This document shows positions 1,823 to 56,541 of a DNA stretch of 64,000 bases, one piece after another. The translations under genes were made by a program, and so were the position numbers. The notes under the pieces were generated by a model. It did not search any database. It worked only from the letters and a program-made list of their open reading frames with translations, and was not told the origin of the DNA. The stretch is taken from NCBI RefSeq assembly GCF_001425025.1, contig NZ_LMDE01000010.1, positions 330,212-394,211 of the forward strand, in the 5' to 3' direction. Within the stretch, counting starts at the first letter, position 1; each line of letters opens with the position of its first letter. The stretch comes from Nocardioides sp. Root122. Its GTDB lineage: Bacteria > Actinomycetota > Actinomycetes > Propionibacteriales > Nocardioidaceae.

Positions 1823-1902
1823 CGCACCTGGCACGCCCGACCGCCTGCCTCAGACCCACCTGCGCGACGCTGCCCGGCGACCTCTGCTAGCGTCCTCGCC
1901 GT

Positions 1903-1993
1903 CCACACGGGAGTCCGCGGCAGCGGGCTGAGAGGGAGCTGGAGCCGCTCCGACCGTCGTACCTGATCCGGGTCATGCCGGCGAAGGAAGTGA
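1903..1993 (+). ncRNA. TPP riboswitch (THI element)
   Basis: The conserved blocks of the thiamine pyrophosphate aptamer are present in order: ACACGGGAG, then CTGAGA at 1928-1933, then ACCTGATCCGG, then ATGCCGGCGAAGGAAG ending at 1990. A short P1 stem can form between CAC near 1904-1908 and GTG at 1990-1992. It lies directly before thiE and faces the seven-gene thiamine operon. The Shine-Dalgarno sequence of thiE (GAAGGAAG, 1983-1990) lies inside the last conserved block, so ligand binding should hide it and block translation. A TAGCGT at 1888-1893 could be the -10 element. Confidence 0.93.
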
Positions 1994-1999
1994 TTCCAC

Positions 2000-2593
2000 G
2001 TGTTGTCGACGCGCATCTTCTGCCTGGTCTCCTCGACCGACGACCTGTCCCTGCTCGGCGACCTCGCCGAGGTGGGGGTCGACGGGTTCCAGGTCCGCGA
2101 CAAGGTGGTCACCACCCGCGAGCTCGTCGAGCTCACCCGGGTCGTGATCGGCGCGGTCCGCCCGTTCGGCGCCACCGTCGTCGTCGACGACCGGCTGGAC
2201 GTCGCCCTGGCGACGGGGGCCGACGGGGTCCACCTGGGGGCCGACGACCTGCCGGTCGGGCTCGCCGTCGCGAGCGCGCCGCACCTGCTCGTGGGGGCGA
2301 CCTGCCGTGATCGCGACGACGTCGAGCGGGCCGCCGCCGCGGGGGCGTCGTACGCCGGGTTCGGCCCGGTCCACGCCACGACCAGCAAGGCGGGACTGCC
2401 GCCGGCGCTCGGGGTGCCCGCCGTCGCCGCGGCGAGCGGCGTCCTGCCGCTGGTGGCCATCGGCGGCATCGACGCCGGCCGGGTGCGTCCGGTGGTCGAC
2501 GCGGGCGCCCACGGCGTCGCGGTGCTCGGCGCCATCTGGAGCAAGCCCGATCCCGTCGCCGCCGCGAAGGAGCTGGTGCAGGAGCTCGGCTGA
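2000..2593 (+). CDS. thiE: thiamine phosphate synthase
   Basis: A 197-residue ThiE, which joins HMP pyrophosphate and thiazole phosphate to thiamine phosphate. Family landmarks are seen: QVRDK near residue 30, the VDDRLDVALATGADGVHLG stretch near 70-90, GPVHATTSK near 125 that binds the pyrophosphate, and the GG phosphate loop in AIGGID. It begins with GTG at 2000, ten bases after the GAAGGAAG that is also the last block of the TPP aptamer. First gene of the thiamine operon; its TGA overlaps the ATG of thiO by one base. A second, more diverged ThiE/TenI-like gene lies later in the same operon. The usual NDR motif reads DDR here. Confidence 0.9.
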   Translation: MLSTRIFCLVSSTDDLSLLGDLAEVGVDGFQVRDKVVTTRELVELTRVVIGAVRPFGATVVVDDRLDVALATGADGVHLGADDLPVGLAVASAPHLLVGATCRDRDDVERAAAAGASYAGFGPVHATTSKAGLPPALGVPAVAAASGVLPLVAIGGIDAGRVRPVVDAGAHGVAVLGAIWSKPDPVAAAKELVQELG

Positions 2594-49124: not shown

Positions 49125-49868
49125 TCAGACAGGCACGAGCTCGACGGCGCCGACCGCGTAGCGGGCCAGGATCGCCCGGGCGACCGCAGGGTGGGCGCCC
49201 AGCGGGTCGGACACGGCCACCGCGCCGGCCTCGAGCGCGAGCTCGGTCGCCCGGTCGGGCAACCGGCCCGGGGCGAGGAAGAACGACGCGACCGCGATGT
49301 GGCGCTTGCCCTCGCCGCGGAACGCGCGCACGGCCTCGCCGGCGGCAGGGGGAGCGGCCGAGGCGAACGCCGCGGTGACCGGCAGCCGGTGCCGCGCGCC
49401 CCACGTGCGGGCGATGCGGGCCACGGCCTGGTTGGCGAGCGGGTCCGAGGAGCCGGCGGCGGCGAGGACCAGGGCGTCGAGCTCGCGCACCCGGGCCGCC
49501 CGGAGGGCGTCGCGGAGGCGGACGTCGAGCACCTCGAGGAAGGCGGCCTCCATGCCGAGGATCCGGCTGGCCTGGATCTTGAGCCCGTCGTGGCGGGCCA
49601 TCGCGGCAGCGATCGCCTCGGGGACGTCGACCTTGGCGTGGTAGGCCTCGGTGAGGAGCAGCGGGACGACGACGATCTCGTCGTGACCGGCCTTCACGAG
49701 CCGGTCGACGACCGTGTCGAACGACGGCTTGGAGAGGTCGAGGAACGCCGTCTCGATCCGGAGGTCGGGGCGCATCGCCTTGACCTCGGCGACGAGCGCC
49801 TTGATCGTCGCGGCCGAACGCGGGTCCCGGCTTCCGTGGGCCAGGGCGACCAGAGCAGGAGCAGCCAT
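49125..49868 (-). CDS. sirohydrochlorin chelatase (CbiX/SirB type)
   Basis: A 247-residue chelatase with two half-domains: the N-terminal metal-site ALAHGSRDPRSAATI and VVPLLLTEAYHAKVDVPEAI, and a second half with VLAAAGSSDP and VASFFLAPGRLPD. It should insert iron into sirohydrochlorin to make siroheme, the cofactor of the sulfite reductase encoded upstream on the same strand; insertion of cobalt for cobalamin is an alternative. ATG at 49868, 96 bases after the cysH stop, so probably in the same operon. Confidence 0.88.
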   Translation of the reverse strand: MAAPALVALAHGSRDPRSAATIKALVAEVKAMRPDLRIETAFLDLSKPSFDTVVDRLVKAGHDEIVVVPLLLTEAYHAKVDVPEAIAAAMARHDGLKIQASRILGMEAAFLEVLDVRLRDALRAARVRELDALVLAAAGSSDPLANQAVARIARTWGARHRLPVTAAFASAAPPAAGEAVRAFRGEGKRHIAVASFFLAPGRLPDRATELALEAGAVAVSDPLGAHPAVARAILARYAVGAVELVPV

Positions 49869-49964: not shown

Positions 49965-50708
49965 CTAGGCATGGATGCCGCACTCGGTCTTGGAGGTGCC
50001 GGCCCAGCGCCCGCTGCGCGGGTCGTCGCCGGGCGCGACGCGACGGGTGCACGGCCAGCAGCCGATGCTGGGGTAGCCGTCGTGGACGAGCGGGTTGACC
50101 AGCACGCCGTTGTCGACGACGTAGCGCTCGACCTGCTCGTCGCTCCAGCGCGCGAGCGGCGAGACCTTGACCTTGCCCTTGCGGGCGTCCCAGCCGACGA
50201 CCGGCGCGATGACCCGGTTGTGGGTCTCGGCGCGACGCAGGCCGGTCGCCCAGGCGTCGTACTCGGCAAGGGCGTCGTTGAGGGGCTGGACCTTGCGCAG
50301 CGCGCAGCAGAGGTCGGGGTCGGTCTTGTAGAGGTCCTTGCCGTACTGCGCGTCCTGCTCGGCCACGGTCAGCGGGGTGCTGACGGTGCGCAGGTTGACC
50401 GGCAGGGTGGCGCCGACCGCGTCACGGGTCCCGATGGTCTCGACGAAGTGGTAGCCGGTGTCGAGGAAGACCACGTCGATGCCGGGGGCGACCGTGGAGG
50501 CGAGGTGCGCCAGCACGGCGTCGCCCATCGAGGACGTGATGGCGAACCGGTCGCCGAAGGTGGCGACGGCCCACTCGATGATCACCTCGGCCGGGGCGAG
50601 CTCGAGCTCGGCGCCTACGTGGGAGACCAGCTCGCGCAGCTCCTCCGGCGTACGTCCCTCGGTGTGCGTGCCCTTGAAGTCGCGGGCCGCCTGGGTGGAG
50701 GCGCTCAT
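49965..50708 (-). CDS. cysH: adenylyl-sulfate (APS) reductase CysH
   Basis: A 247-residue CysH that reduces activated sulfate to sulfite with thioredoxin. The 4Fe-4S cluster ligands, present only in the APS-type enzymes, are DLCCALRK (near 133-140) and GCWPCTRRV (near 216-224); the catalytic cysteine is in the C-terminal TECGIHA. ITSSMGDAVLAHL is the PAPS/APS-binding loop. ATG at 50708 overlaps the stop of the zinc-ribbon gene. Sulfate activation genes (cysD, cysN) are not in the window. Confidence 0.95.
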   Translation of the reverse strand: MSASTQAARDFKGTHTEGRTPEELRELVSHVGAELELAPAEVIIEWAVATFGDRFAITSSMGDAVLAHLASTVAPGIDVVFLDTGYHFVETIGTRDAVGATLPVNLRTVSTPLTVAEQDAQYGKDLYKTDPDLCCALRKVQPLNDALAEYDAWATGLRRAETHNRVIAPVVGWDARKGKVKVSPLARWSDEQVERYVVDNGVLVNPLVHDGYPSIGCWPCTRRVAPGDDPRSGRWAGTSKTECGIHA

Positions 50709-50860
50709 GCCGCTCCTCCACCCGGTCGGATCATGCCGGTCATCCGGACGGTGAAGGCGCGCAGGCACGAGCGGCACTCCCAGGCCCCCGCGCCTTCCTG
50801 GGGGAACAGGTTCTCGTCCCCGCAGTAGGGGCAGTGGAACGGGACTGCTCGCTCGCTCAT
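50705..50860 (-). CDS. 51-residue zinc-ribbon protein between sir and cysH
   Basis: A very small gene: residues 9-14 HCPYCG and 28-32 ECRSC give two CxxC pairs, a zinc-ribbon or rubredoxin-like knuckle, with the tail RMTGMIRPGGGAA. It begins with the ATG immediately after the sir stop (TGA directly followed by ATG on the minus strand) and its own stop overlaps the cysH ATG, which is strong evidence that it is translated. A small gene in the same place is known to me from Streptomyces sir-cysH loci. Function unknown; a role in electron transfer or metal delivery to Sir or CysH is conceivable. Confidence 0.82.
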   Translation of the reverse strand: MSERAVPFHCPYCGDENLFPQEGAGAWECRSCLRAFTVRMTGMIRPGGGAA

Positions 50861-52579
50861 TCAGACCGCCGCCAGCTCGGGCTCGCCGCGCAGCAGCTTC
50901 TCGTCGGCGCGGGCCACCCAGGCGGCGAAGCGCTCCCCGTCGGTGCGGTCCTCGAGGTACGCCGACACGACGCGGGTGACGTAGTCGTCCAGTCCGGCGC
51001 TGGTCACCTTGTGGGCGCGCAGCTTGCGGCCCATCGCGGTGTGGAGCCCGAGTGCCCCGCCGAGGTGCACCTGGAAGCCCTCGACCTGTCGGCCGGCCTC
51101 GTCCATCACGAGCTGGCCCTTCAGGCCGATGTCGGCGACCTGGGTGCGGGCGCAGGCGTTGGGGCAGCCGTTGACGTTGACCGAGATGTCGGTGTCGAGG
51201 TCGGGGAAGCGCTTCTCCAGCTCGGTCACCAGGCGGCGGGCGCGCTCCTTGGTGTCGACGATGGCGAGCTTGCAGAACTCGATGCCGGTGCAGGCCATCG
51301 TGGAGCGGCGCCAGTTGCTGGGACGGGCGGTGAGGCCGATCTTCTCGAGGTCGTCGGCGAAGGCGGCGGTGTCCTCGGCGGCGACGCCGATCACGACCAG
51401 CTTCTGGTAGGCCGTCAGCCGCGCGCCGGCCGCGCCGTAGTGCTCGACGAGGTCGCCGAGCGCGCTCAGCGTGGTGCCGTCGATGCGGCCCACGACCGGG
51501 GCGGCGCCGACGTAGAAGCGGCCGTCCTTCTGCTCGTGGATGCCGATGTGGTCACCCTGGACGACGGGCGCCTCGGGGGAGGGGTTGTCGACGAGGGCGC
51601 GGTGGAGGTACTCGTTCTCCAGGACCTCCCGGAACTTCTCCTTGCCCCAGTCGGCCAGGAGGAACTTGAGGCGGGCCTTGGACCGGAGCCGGCGGTAGCC
51701 GTAGTCGCGGAAGATCCCGGCGACGCCCTCCCAGGCGTCGGCGACCTCGTCGAGCGGGATCCAGACGCCGAGCTTGTGGGCGAGCATCGGGTTGGTGGAC
51801 AGGCCGCCGCCGACCCAGAGGTCGAAGCCCGGGCCGTGCTCGGGGTGGACGGTGCCGACGAACGAGACGTCGTTGACCTCCGGCGCCACGTCGTGGCTCG
51901 GGTGGCCGGTCAGCGCGGTCTTGAACTTGCGCGGCAGGTTGGAGAACGCCGGGTTGTCGAGCGCGCGGCGCTTGATCTCGGCGAGCGCCTCGCTGCCGTC
52001 GATGATCTCGTCCTTGGCGATGCCGGCGACGGGGGAGCCGAGGAAGGGGCGCGGGCCGTCGCCGCACGCCTCCAGGGTGGACAGGCCGACCGCCTCGAGG
52101 CGCTCCCAGATGGCGGGGACGCTCTCGATGTCGATCCAGTGGTACTGGATGTTGTTGCGGTCGGTGATGTCCGCGGTGTTGCGGGCGTAGGCGGTCGACA
52201 CCTCACCGAGCGTGCGGAGCGCGGCCGCGTCGAGGATCGCGCCGTCGGTGCGCACGCGCATCATGAAGAAGCGGTCGTCGAGCTCCTCCTCCCCGAGCTG
52301 GGCGGTCTTGCCGCCGTCGAAGCCCGGGGCGCGCTGCGTGTAGAGGCCCATCCACCGGAAGCGCCCGCGCAGGTCGGCGGGGTCGATCGAGTCGAACCCG
52401 CGTCGCGAGTAGGTGTGGAGGATGCGGTCCCGCACGTTGAGCGGGTCGTCGTCCTTCTTGGACTGCTCGTTCTTGTTGAGCGGCTCGGTGTAGCCGAGCG
52501 CCCACTGACCCTCGGCGCGCTTGGGGCGCGGGATCTCGGTGTTCTGGGCGGCCTGGGGCGTGAACCTGAGGTCGGGCAT
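50861..52579 (-). CDS. sir: assimilatory sulfite reductase (ferredoxin)
   Basis: A 572-residue siroheme/4Fe-4S reductase that takes sulfite to sulfide with six electrons. Two ferredoxin-like halves are seen; the cluster ligands are TGIEFCKLA (near 434-442) and NGCPNACARTQ (near 473-483), the CxxxxxC...CxxxC arrangement shared by sulfite and nitrite reductases. YTEPLNKNEQSKKDDDPLNV and the neighbouring cysH point to sulfite. ATG at 52579. A hairpin covers the upstream AGGA, and a leader peptide is encoded farther upstream. Confidence 0.94.
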   Translation of the reverse strand: MPDLRFTPQAAQNTEIPRPKRAEGQWALGYTEPLNKNEQSKKDDDPLNVRDRILHTYSRRGFDSIDPADLRGRFRWMGLYTQRAPGFDGGKTAQLGEEELDDRFFMMRVRTDGAILDAAALRTLGEVSTAYARNTADITDRNNIQYHWIDIESVPAIWERLEAVGLSTLEACGDGPRPFLGSPVAGIAKDEIIDGSEALAEIKRRALDNPAFSNLPRKFKTALTGHPSHDVAPEVNDVSFVGTVHPEHGPGFDLWVGGGLSTNPMLAHKLGVWIPLDEVADAWEGVAGIFRDYGYRRLRSKARLKFLLADWGKEKFREVLENEYLHRALVDNPSPEAPVVQGDHIGIHEQKDGRFYVGAAPVVGRIDGTTLSALGDLVEHYGAAGARLTAYQKLVVIGVAAEDTAAFADDLEKIGLTARPSNWRRSTMACTGIEFCKLAIVDTKERARRLVTELEKRFPDLDTDISVNVNGCPNACARTQVADIGLKGQLVMDEAGRQVEGFQVHLGGALGLHTAMGRKLRAHKVTSAGLDDYVTRVVSAYLEDRTDGERFAAWVARADEKLLRGEPELAAV

Positions 52580-52582
52580 GAT

Positions 52583-52596
52583 CAGGAGATTTCCTG
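52583..52596 (-). promoter_or_regulatory. hairpin over the sir ribosome-binding site
   Basis: CAGGA (52583-52587) and TCCTG (52592-52596) form a five-bp stem with loop GATT. On the minus strand the left arm is CAGGA, which contains the only AGGA near the sir ATG, so folding would hide it. Confidence 0.45.
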
Positions 52597-52649
52597 TTCG
52601 CTGAGGAGTGCCGCGCGCGACGTTGAGCGCGGAGGGACTTCTGGCGGCG

Positions 52650-52739
52650 TCAGCGATGCCAACAGGTCGCGCTGCCCACGCGCATGAGGTCGACGTGACG
52701 TCGGACCACAAGGTGTGCGTGGGTGGAAGCGGTGACCAT
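52650..52739 (-). CDS. 29-residue leader peptide of the sulfur operon
   Basis: An ATG at 52739 opens a 29-codon frame with VVRRHVDLMRVGSATCWHR at its end. The RRHVDLxRVxSAxC core is the hallmark of the small putative leader peptides seen upstream of sulfur-assimilation genes in Streptomyces and relatives. It lies 70 bases before the sir start on the same strand, and its Cys codon is near the end, suited to sensing cysteinyl-tRNA by ribosome stalling. The stalling mechanism is inference; the peptide match is clear. Confidence 0.78.
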   Translation of the reverse strand: MVTASTHAHLVVRRHVDLMRVGSATCWHR

Positions 52740-52780
52740 GTCAAGAAGTCTCAGGGAGTGGACGCCTGTTCCACAAGGTG
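52706..52780. repeat. 10-bp direct repeat around the leader-peptide start
   Basis: CCACAAGGTG occurs at 52706-52715 and again at 52771-52780, 65 bases apart in the same orientation. An imperfect palindrome centred on ACATGT (52784-52798) lies next to the second copy. These may be regulator sites of the sir promoter. Confidence 0.4.
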
Positions 52781-52866
52781 AAATCCCGACATGTGGGATG
52801 CGTGCCCGGATAGTGAGACGGTGGCGGTCCGGTCACGCTGCTGGCCGGGCGTCGGTGCGGTCCAGG

Positions 52867-55020
52867 TCACATGTCCCGGGTCACACGCACGAGGAGCCGG
52901 ACGACGTCGCGCCGCCCCTGAGGGGACGTCGCCACGACGCGCACGGCAGGTCGTCCTGCGCTGGCGGACGCGCCGGCCTTGACGCGGACCCTCAGGCGGA
53001 GGACCTGGCCGGGCGCGAGCGCGGGCGTACGCCAGCCGTGACGGCTGAGCCTGCGGGAGCGGTCGACCCCACGGTGGACGTAGGACACCCTGAGGGTGCC
53101 CCGTGCGAGCGACCGCGGAGCACGCAGCACGAAACGGCCGCGGGCGCCGCCTGCGTTGCGCACCCGCAACGTCGCCCGGACGGTACGACCTGGGCGCACC
53201 TTCGTGCGCAGGACCTGGGCCGTCGGGGCGAGCGAGCCGGTGCCCACCCAGCGGCCGGGCGGCACCCGCAGCGCCAGGTCGGGTCTCGAGACCGCGCTCG
53301 GCGGCGTGGTCGGTGTCGGGGGCGGGACGACGGGTGCGACGACGGTGAAGGACCGGCTGCGTGTCGTCGTGCCGCCCGAGCCGTCGCGCGCCGTGACGGA
53401 CCAGGTGTGGGTTCCGGGGACGCTGGTGTCGAGCTGCCGCCCCGCCGGCCCGTCGCACGACTGCAGCGTCGAGCCGCCCCGGTCGGTGCACGAGAACGAG
53501 ACCGGTACGACGGAGCCCTGGGTGACGCTGGTGCCGTCCGCGGGTCCGTCGACGGCGACCTCGGGGTCGAACCCGTCACGTGCCGGCACCAGTGCGGCGC
53601 GATAGCTGATGTAGGCCCGCGGAACGACCCCGTCGACCGGCTGCTGGGTGTCGCTCAGCCTCCAGATGGTCCTTCCCGCCGAATCTGTCTCGGCCGCTAT
53701 CGAGGACGGCGCGGAGGACCAGCCGATCAGCATGTTGCCGCTGTCGAACTGGGTCGCCGACCCCATGAACCACGCGAACCGGTCGCTCTCGCCGTAGGTC
53801 TTCACAGGTGTGGCGATTCCGCCGGCGAGCTCGAACTCGACGACGCGGGTCGAGGGCCGATAGACCGAGCCGCGCTCCGGGTCCTGCTGGTCGACGCAGA
53901 GGGGACGTCCGAAGAAGGCGCCGGAACCGTTGTCGAAGACCAGGACGTGGCCGTTGGTCAGGATCTTCGCCGAGTGCTGCGCGCAGACACCGGTGTCGGC
54001 GCTCCCGTCGGACAGGGCCGGGAAGGTGAAGTCGCTCGTGCGGCCGCCCAGCTTCCAGACCACCTCGTCGTCGGCAGGGTCGGTGGTGGGCCGGATCAGG
54101 AAGACGGAGCTGAAGTTGCGGAAGGACGCGAGGACGTCGCCGTTGGGCTGCACCTCGATCGAGTTGATGTGGGCGTAGTCCACGTCACCGGGGACCACCG
54201 TCTCGTCCGCGTACGGCGCGCTCGTCCACTGCCAGAGCACGCTGCCGTCCGGACCGAGGTGCTGGATGACCGAGTCGATGAGCCCCGTCGCTGCATTGGG
54301 CTCGTAGGCGATCAGCCACTCCGACCCGTCGGGCAGGAGGAGGGAGTCGTGGTCGTCGGTGTTCTCGAGGCCTGCGGTCTCGTGCCGGGCCACCTCCCGG
54401 AACTGGTCGTCGAGCTCGACCAGCGCGCCGCCCGTCCGGCCGGCGGTGGTCGTGGGTCGATGGACGGTGAAGCGACCGTTGCCGTTGAGCTTGAGGTCGA
54501 GCACCCGCTCGGCGTGCGAGCGGGTGTAGACCGGCACTCCATTGCGGTCCACGATCGTCTCGAAGCGCGGGGCCGTGCTGTTGTCGTAGCGATCGAGCGT
54601 GAGCGCGATGTTGCCGGGCTCGACCGGGGCATCCGTCGACTCGGCGGCCAGCGTGGGGAAGCCATCCGGCACCACGTAGAAGGCAACGGCGCGGCGCTCC
54701 TGCCCACTGCCGATGAAGACGGAGATCTCCTCGCCGGCGCGCAGGCCGGTGAACGTCCTGGTGCCATCGGCATCGGGGACTCCGTTGAATGCCACGTCCG
54801 TGGCGTCGGTGACGTCGACCCGTACTGATCCGTCCGCCGCCGGGAACACTGCGTACCTGGTGGTCGCGGGGTCGTAGGCGGGATACATCCGCGCCCCGCT
54901 GGCGACGGTCACGGACGGCGTGGTCGCTCCCTCGGCGGGGGCGGGGGAACCGGGCGCGATCACAAGAGCGGTGGCGGCCAGCGCCGCGCTTCCGCACAGC
55001 GACCAGAGGCGGGTTGGCAA
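52867..55020 (-). CDS. secreted arylsulfotransferase-family protein
   Basis: A 717-residue protein with a signal peptide (LWSLCGSAALAATALVIAPG, then AEGATT). Residues 40-520 follow the arylsulfotransferase beta-propeller family: NGNGRFTVHRP, LENTDDHDSLLLPDGSEWLI, HINSIEVQPNGDVLASFRNF, CAQHSAKILTNGHVLVFDNG, SATQFDSGNMLIGW. A Pro-rich linker and Ig-like modules (about 530-717) follow. It would move sulfate between phenolic compounds outside the cell. Start is TTG 55020, seven bases after AAGGAG; longer frames run antisense into glyA. Confidence 0.78.
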   Translation of the reverse strand: MPTRLWSLCGSAALAATALVIAPGSPAPAEGATTPSVTVASGARMYPAYDPATTRYAVFPAADGSVRVDVTDATDVAFNGVPDADGTRTFTGLRAGEEISVFIGSGQERRAVAFYVVPDGFPTLAAESTDAPVEPGNIALTLDRYDNSTAPRFETIVDRNGVPVYTRSHAERVLDLKLNGNGRFTVHRPTTTAGRTGGALVELDDQFREVARHETAGLENTDDHDSLLLPDGSEWLIAYEPNAATGLIDSVIQHLGPDGSVLWQWTSAPYADETVVPGDVDYAHINSIEVQPNGDVLASFRNFSSVFLIRPTTDPADDEVVWKLGGRTSDFTFPALSDGSADTGVCAQHSAKILTNGHVLVFDNGSGAFFGRPLCVDQQDPERGSVYRPSTRVVEFELAGGIATPVKTYGESDRFAWFMGSATQFDSGNMLIGWSSAPSSIAAETDSAGRTIWRLSDTQQPVDGVVPRAYISYRAALVPARDGFDPEVAVDGPADGTSVTQGSVVPVSFSCTDRGGSTLQSCDGPAGRQLDTSVPGTHTWSVTARDGSGGTTTRSRSFTVVAPVVPPPTPTTPPSAVSRPDLALRVPPGRWVGTGSLAPTAQVLRTKVRPGRTVRATLRVRNAGGARGRFVLRAPRSLARGTLRVSYVHRGVDRSRRLSRHGWRTPALAPGQVLRLRVRVKAGASASAGRPAVRVVATSPQGRRDVVRLLVRVTRDM

Positions 55021-55091
55021 AGTAAAGCTCCTTCGTCCCGGCGACCATACGTGACGTCGGTTCCGGTGTACGCGCGATGAAGGGATCGTCC

Positions 55092-55097
55092 TAGGCT
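55092..55097 (+). promoter_or_regulatory. -10 element of a leaderless promoter for glyA
   Basis: TAGGCT seven bases before the ATG at 55105. Confidence 0.5.
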
Positions 55098-55104
55098 GTC
55101 CGCC

Positions 55105-56541
55105 ATGACGGACTCCCTCATCAGCAGCGCGTACACCCAGGCCCTGGAGGTCATCGCCTCCGTCGAGCCGCGGATCGCCGAGGCGACCCGCCAGGAGCTC
55201 GCCGACCAGCGCGGCTCGCTCAAGCTGATCGCCTCGGAGAACTACGCCTCGCCGGCCGTGCTGATGACCATGGGCACCTGGTTCAGCGACAAGTACGCCG
55301 AGGGCACCGTCGGGCACCGCTTCTACGCCGGCTGCCAGAACGTCGACACCGTCGAGTCACTCGCCGCCGAGCACGCCCGGGAGCTGTTCGGCGCGCCCTA
55401 TGCCTACGTCCAGCCGCACTCCGGCATCGACGCCAACCTGGTCGCGTTCTGGTCGATCCTCGCCAACCGCGTCGAGACCCCCTACCTGCAGAAGATGCAG
55501 GCCAAGAACGTCAACGAGCTCACCGAGGCCGACTGGGAGACGCTGCGCCACGAGTTCGGCAACCAGCGCCTGCTGGGCATGTCTCTCGACGCCGGCGGCC
55601 ACCTCACCCACGGCTTCCGCCCCAACATCAGCGGCAAGATGTTCCACCAGCAGCAGTACGGCACCGACCCCGGGACCGGGCTTCTCGACTACGACGCGGT
55701 CGCCGCCAAGGCGCGCGAGTTCAAGCCGCTCGTCCTCGTCGCCGGCTACTCGGCCTACCCGCGCCGGGTGAACTTCGCCAAGATGCGCGAGATCGCCGAC
55801 GAGGTCGGCGCCGTGCTCATGGTCGACATGGCCCACTTCGCCGGGCTCGTCGCCGGCAAGGTCTTCACCGGGGAGGAGAACCCGGTGCCCTACGCCCACA
55901 TCACCACCACGACGACCCACAAGTCGCTGCGCGGGCCGCGCGGCGGCATGGTGCTGGCGCAGGAGGAGTTCGCCGCGGACGTCGACCGCGGCTGCCCGAT
56001 GGTGCTCGGCGGCCCCCTGTCGCACGTGATGGCCGCCAAGGCCGTCGCGTTCGCCGAGGCCCGCACGACGGAGTTCCAGTCCTACGCCCAGAAGGTCGCC
56101 GACAACGCCAAGTCGCTCGCCGAGGGCTTCCTGAGCCGCGACGCCACGCTGGTCACCGGTGGCACCGACAACCACATCGTGCTGCTCGACGTGTCGTCCT
56201 TCGGGCTGACCGGCCGCCAGGCCGAGTCGGCGCTGCTCGACGCCGGTGTCGTCACCAACCGCAACTCGGTGCCTGCCGACCCCAACGGCGCCTGGTACAC
56301 CTCCGGCGTCCGGCTCGGCACGCCCGCGCTCACCACGCGTGGGTTCGGCCACGACGAGTTCGACAAGGTCGCCGAGCTGATCGTCGACGTGCTGAGCAAC
56401 ACCGAGGCCGGGACGACCAAGGCGGGCGAGCCCAGCAGGGCGTCGTACGTCCTGGGCGACGGCGTCGCGGACCGTGTCACCGCCCAGTCGGCGGAGATGC
56501 TCGACAAGCACCCGCTCTACCCCGGACTGGTCCTGGGCTGA
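55105..56541 (+). CDS. glyA: serine hydroxymethyltransferase, long form
   Basis: A 478-residue PLP enzyme that converts serine and tetrahydrofolate to glycine and methylene-tetrahydrofolate. The PLP lysine is in [14 protein letters not shown] (near 268-281); [33 protein letters not shown] and [11 protein letters not shown] are typical. It is about 60 residues longer than the common 415-430-residue form, mostly from an insertion near 130-170 ([20 protein letters not shown]), a variant known in actinobacteria. It makes glycine, the substrate of ThiO, though the genes are far apart. Confidence 0.93.

Follow-up and report, generated by a model that had tools for sequence, protein, structure and literature searches.

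A short leader gene upstream of a sulfur-assimilation operon of Nocardioides sp. Root122 is probably a cysteine-responsive, ribosome-operated translation attenuator of that operon, and the broader view that it is a cysteine-linked leader of some kind can be held with considerable confidence. The evidence supports a conserved, apparently translated peptide with a single Cys codon near its end, and it points to a conserved switch in which the final codon and the stop of the leader pair with bases lying 5' of the sir Shine-Dalgarno sequence, a switch better supported than a local hairpin over the same site. The DNA analysed, referred to below as the window, is a stretch of 64,000 nucleotides, and the leader, its promoter, the operon and the RNA elements discussed here lie on its minus strand. 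The gene order after the leader is sir (50861-52579), encoding a nitrite/sulfite reductase of the ferredoxin type (PF01077 and PF03460, with NF007125 below its cut-off); cysH (49965-50777), encoding a phosphoadenylyl-sulfate reductase (NF002537, over its cut-off); and a gene for a CbiX-type sirohydrochlorin chelatase (49125-49868; PF01903). Upstream of the leader is an 816-aa ORF (52867-55317, minus strand) with weak matches to arylsulfotransferases (ASST; PF14269 and PF05935). No Rfam cis-regulatory RNA family reaches its gathering score at the leader, and the sole match in the window is a TPP riboswitch elsewhere (1897-2006, plus strand; RF00059, 57.6 bits).

The leader ORF (52650-52739) has 29 codons, encodes MVTASTHAHLVVRRHVDLMRVGSATCWHR and is separated by 70 nt from the sir ATG (52579). 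A preliminary description of this DNA, made from its letters alone, had recognized a 29-codon frame with the motif RRHVDLxRVxSAxC, and the frame stands as described, with an exact fit to the motif. The peptide matches the NCBIfam model NF042934, "putative leader peptide" (cis_reg_atten), with E=4e-7 and 29.5 bits against a curated cut-off of 27, and it scores 28 bits (E=1.4e-5) when the whole genome is searched with that model; with NF042936 (leader_Ms4527A) it scores 29.4 bits, under the curated cut-off of 45, which a mycobacterial sir leader clears with 57.7 bits. Peptides of this class are, as the preliminary description also stated, known before sulfur genes in actinomycetes. We fetched 80 sir loci from Nocardioidaceae, Kribbella, Aeromicrobium and Streptomyces, for 79 of which the upstream region could be read (L061 was cut off), and a leader precedes sir in 78 of the 79, i.e., far beyond chance. 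Among the 45 sequence clusters used for the statistics of pairing and spacing, 40 have leaders with a single Cys. Within 58 Nocardioides-type leaders, pN/pS is 0.30-0.40 for the motif vs 0.62 for the N-terminal part, which argues for translation of the leader and for constraint on the peptide.

The sequence before the leader is conserved as well. In 53 loci the region upstream of the start codon aligns without gaps, and the alignment displays in turn an operator-like GTCTC-N7-GAGAT, TTGTGG, GTCC, TGAGACT and the start codon. The -35 box TTGTGG (52771-52776) is a conserved block of columns in these loci, and the -10 box GAGACT (52747-52752) lies 18 nt after it and 7 nt before the leader ATG; across the alignment 46 loci share this last distance of 7 nt, and the other 7 have 6 nt. 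No Shine-Dalgarno sequence is found between the -10 box and the leader start codon in the 53-locus alignment, and from this spacing the leader transcript is probably leaderless, starting at or next to the ATG. An operator-like palindrome, ATCCC-N7-GGGAT (52783-52799), stands upstream of the -35 box, where aligned relatives have ATCTC-N7-GAGAT, and the alignment places a degenerate distal copy, GTCTC-N7-GGGCA, at 52803-52819. These palindromes (GTCYC-N7-GRGAY; 52783-52819) form a tandem pair about 20 bp apart that is conserved in Nocardioides, and similar operator-like sites occur in Streptomyces and before a second leader of the same genome (L004, described below). A genome search for further copies of the operator gave one weak match only, near background.

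It could be argued that control resides entirely in this promoter, acting through the palindromes, with the leader as a passive sORF or one that enhances translation. The operator-like repeats are indeed conserved, at a distance from the -35 box that is fixed across relatives, and the sole leader-less locus, that of N. jejuensis (L045:2850-3000), has kept the operator, -35 and -10 while losing the leader frame; it is a natural deletion of the leader, and we count it against the attenuator. Promoter-only control nevertheless leaves unexplained a leader that is present in all the other readable loci, with its Cys codon, stop-codon pairing and distance conserved, and we regard it as very unlikely. 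The preliminary description had also drawn attention to a direct repeat, CCACAAGGTG, as part of the leader region. Both copies are present (52706-52715 and 52771-52780), and among all loci only the window has the two. The conserved -35 TTGTGG falls within the upstream copy, and the downstream copy consists of peptide codons, H9-L10-V11-V12 (His-Leu-Val-Val); with no relative that has both, we rejected the pair as a regulatory element and ascribe it to chance.

Two RNA structures compete as explanations of how the leader might reach sir. The one emphasized in the preliminary description is a local hairpin, CAGGA-AAUC-UCCUG (52583-52596), that encloses the sir Shine-Dalgarno AGGA (52592-52595). 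The hairpin exists, but among 77 loci it is found only in the window and in L005-L008 and L011, being missing from L009, L010 and L012, and in the fold model it persists with a ribosome on the Cys codon. Its stem is invariant in this closest clade, so that covariation support is absent. A structure that is lineage-specific and unaffected by the modelled Cys-stalled ribosome cannot be the main or general switch, and we rejected it as such, although it may tune sir translation in the closest clade. What survives of the earlier proposal is its more general part: it is plausible that sir translation is set by the movement of ribosomes through the leader, by way of pairing of the leader tail and not of the local ribosome-binding-site hairpin.

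The 5' half of the tail helix is UCGCUGA (52650-52656), i.e., the end of His28, Arg29 and the stop codon, and the 3' half is UCAGCGA (52598-52604), just 5' of the sir Shine-Dalgarno; a G+C-rich hairpin region (52611-52632) lies between the leader and the sir ribosome-binding site (RBS). In the window the fold model adds GGCAU paired with AUGCC of the sir start. Simple duplex energies, own vs foreign, gave a weak and spread signal (median rank 0.28) and were set aside; contiguous complementarity was therefore adopted as the measure instead. In the 45 clusters, the longest contiguous complementarity between tail and RBS has a mean of 4.82, compared with 4.21 +/- 0.13 when the RBS segments are permuted (P=5e-5), and with reversed RBS segments or windows from the sir coding sequence as controls it is 4.13 and 3.85, respectively. 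In an alignment of 30 sequences the helix is 88.9% paired, as against 22-64% for slid registers, and two loci have changes on both sides of the helix (L026, UGCUGA:CAGCA; L035, GGCUGA:CAGCC). The covariation score of the helix is not above that of shuffles (95/500 reach it) because most rows of the alignment are invariant, and RNAalifold finds no covariation in the closest clade, where nothing varies in the helix. In 33 of the 45 clusters, the stretch that begins with the Cys codon and finishes with the stop codon measures 15 nt.

Fold models suggest what such a helix could do. When a Cys-stalled ribosome is masked in 38 short-spacer loci, the modelled cost of opening the 30S window is 12.4 kcal/mol instead of 14.3 (P=1e-4), and for region -30 to +6 of the window's own locus it falls from 14.3 to 10.9 kcal/mol; these wider spans were picked after the result for the narrow Shine-Dalgarno span had been seen, for which the model gives little change (8.3 to 7.7 kcal/mol), as the local hairpin remains formed. 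Placing the ribosome at HVD gives no drop in the modelled opening cost of the sir site. Long-spacer loci fold differently and have no clear opening-energy effect in the model, and by their modelled folding they appear to be a second architecture. In the long-spacer leaders L022, L034, L048, L050 and L054, the tail UGUUGGCC..UGACC pairs with GGUC..GGCCAAC and is followed by a CCCGAC/GUCGGG hairpin.

We infer the following sequence of events. The promoter would set the start of the transcript at or next to the leader ATG, and the leader would be translated in leaderless fashion. With plentiful cysteine, ribosomes would complete the leader and depart, and the freed last codons and stop (GGCAUCGCUGA) would pair with UCAGCGA and with AUGCC of the sir start, closing the ribosome-binding region of sir. 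When Cys-tRNA is scarce, ribosomes would stop at the lone UGU, the leader's Cys codon, which lies 15 nt before the stop codon ends; with this codon in the A site, a stalled ribosome would sit over the tail segment and leave the sir region exposed. The response to cysteine is assigned to the sir leader by analogy with its mycobacterial homologues, and the presence of a single Cys codon in the leader counts against the attenuator.

The region does not have the form of a classical ribosome-mediated transcription attenuator, as no intrinsic terminator was found at 52560-52860. A related possibility is that, once the leader is finished, Rho gains access to unstructured C-rich RNA and ends transcription before sir, and that a ribosome stalled at Cys keeps Rho away. 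Rho was proposed for the mycobacterial cys leaders by Seliverstov et al. 2005 (PMC1262725), and a pyrimidine-rich spacer without a detected intrinsic terminator would suit it. That same paper describes its Rho sites as non-conserved, however, the spacer is only 70 nt in the window's clade, and termination by Rho does not predict conserved complementarity beside the sir Shine-Dalgarno. We thus consider Rho improbable and favor translation attenuation through the tail helix.

The sensor itself is Cys codon 26 (UGU; 52662-52664). It is UGU in 77/77 sir leaders, whereas the coding sequences of sir in the same loci use UGU for only 12 of their 418 Cys codons (2.9%); the loci are mutually related and we claim no exact probability for this invariance. 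Of 52 further distinct leaders from Nocardioides and from genomes resembling those of Streptomyces or mycobacteria, 50 were matched; 46 of these have UGU as the sensor, and all four exceptions have UGU at a neighbouring Cys. The other conserved Cys of paralogous leaders (VDxC) is UGC in 25/26. The genome has one tRNA-Cys gene, with anticodon GCA (Rfam and ARAGORN), which makes UGU a wobble codon and leads us to reject a choice between isoacceptors as its explanation. A fixed pairing partner was likewise rejected: U3 of UGU is often paired in fold models, with partners that vary between loci. Slow wobble decoding is our preferred reading of the invariance, with RNA structure as the alternative. 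Leader GC3 is low overall (0.79 vs 0.96), and fixed positions of the leader relative to HVD, namely A(-11), R(-2), G(+4) and R(+5), show an excess of other rare codons (GCT, CGA, GGG/GGT and CGT).

These observations bear on a refinement of the attenuator that employs the same RNA switch and is not exclusive of it. While it occupies the exit tunnel, the conserved nascent chain (RRHVDLxRxxSxxC) might act together with the wobble-read UGU to pause the ribosome, with the supply of cysteine or Cys-tRNA tuning the pause. Conservation at the protein level extends far from the Cys codon, unlike that of classical attenuators, and the codon contrast between the sensor and the other Cys of paralogous leaders, the lone tRNA-Cys(GCA) gene and the sufficiency of one Cys would all accord with such a pause; RNA structure could explain part of the codon conservation, and the low leader GC3 also weakens the case. 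We put this refinement forward tentatively. In its most general form, which we regard as possible and less probable than the attenuator as such, a conserved nascent chain and an obligatory wobble-read UGU would make up a programmed pause point, in which a single Cys suffices as a sensor of cysteine or Cys-tRNA and which is common to several sulfur operons across Actinobacteria.

The same genome has other candidate leaders. One (L004:1490-1570), encoding MSSTMLTRRRAVDHCRVRSALCRMS, precedes a DUF4395 gene and a gene for a rhodanese-type sulfurtransferase; it resembles Ms5788A (NF042933, 34.4 bits, under the cut-off of 45), its first Cys codon is UGC and its sensor UGU, and by inspection its Ser-stop UCCUGA can pair with a CAGGA Shine-Dalgarno. 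A possible third leader (L003; G000:C12:153205-153261, minus strand), ending in ESALCRLACAVD and weaker at 24.6 bits, precedes a gene for an SDF-family dicarboxylate/amino acid symporter, possibly a cystine importer.

In Mycobacterium, Seliverstov et al. 2005 (PMC1262725) predicted Cys leader peptides ahead of cys operons, Shell et al. 2015 (PMC4633059) observed them in M. smegmatis, and cysteine-responsive attenuation was reported by Canestrari et al. 2020, as their work is described in PMC9031893, PMC13236596 and PMC9094748. The leader analysed here belongs to an already recognized actinobacterial family. It passes the cut-off of NF042934, a family of Streptomyces and other Actinobacteria whose model describes no mechanism, whereas an RNA pairing is described here, and it has the single-Cys form of the Streptomyces sir leaders. 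In position it corresponds to Ms4527A, the mycobacterial sir leader (NF042936) that has been studied experimentally, and with which it shares a place upstream of sir, the (R)RH(V/I)DLxRV motif, a probably leaderless start and Cys coding just before the stop; Ms4527A has a run of Cys codons where the Nocardioides leader has one UGU, and the run near the stop of the polycysteine leaderless attenuators of Canestrari et al. 2020 is likewise absent. Of the switch expected of that class, in which leader RNA is paired to the downstream ribosome-binding region until a stalled ribosome releases it, the pairing is supported in the loci compared here and the release is a model prediction. Ms5788A (NF042933) is a paralogous leader of a different operon, that of DUF4395 and a sulfurtransferase, with an extra VDxC Cys encoded by UGC. 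The cysS attenuator of Rhodobacterales, uORFC-8-2 (PMC8632094), also senses Cys-tRNA through Cys codons of a uORF, but these are tandem, with UGC dominant, and act through an intrinsic terminator (transcription attenuation). Within the literature that we searched, two details are new: the stop codon pairs with the Shine-Dalgarno flank, and the sensor UGU is invariant. The pairing specifies exact bases for mutation, and with single-Cys leaders it can be tested directly whether sensitivity depends on which codon is used and on the nascent peptide sequence, beyond the number of codons. The cysteine attenuators tested in mycobacteria, in the accounts of them cited here, have runs of Cys codons, while the leader in Nocardioides, Kribbella and Streptomyces is the same but for having a single Cys codon, which is UGU in all sir leaders examined despite the rarity of UGU in these genomes.
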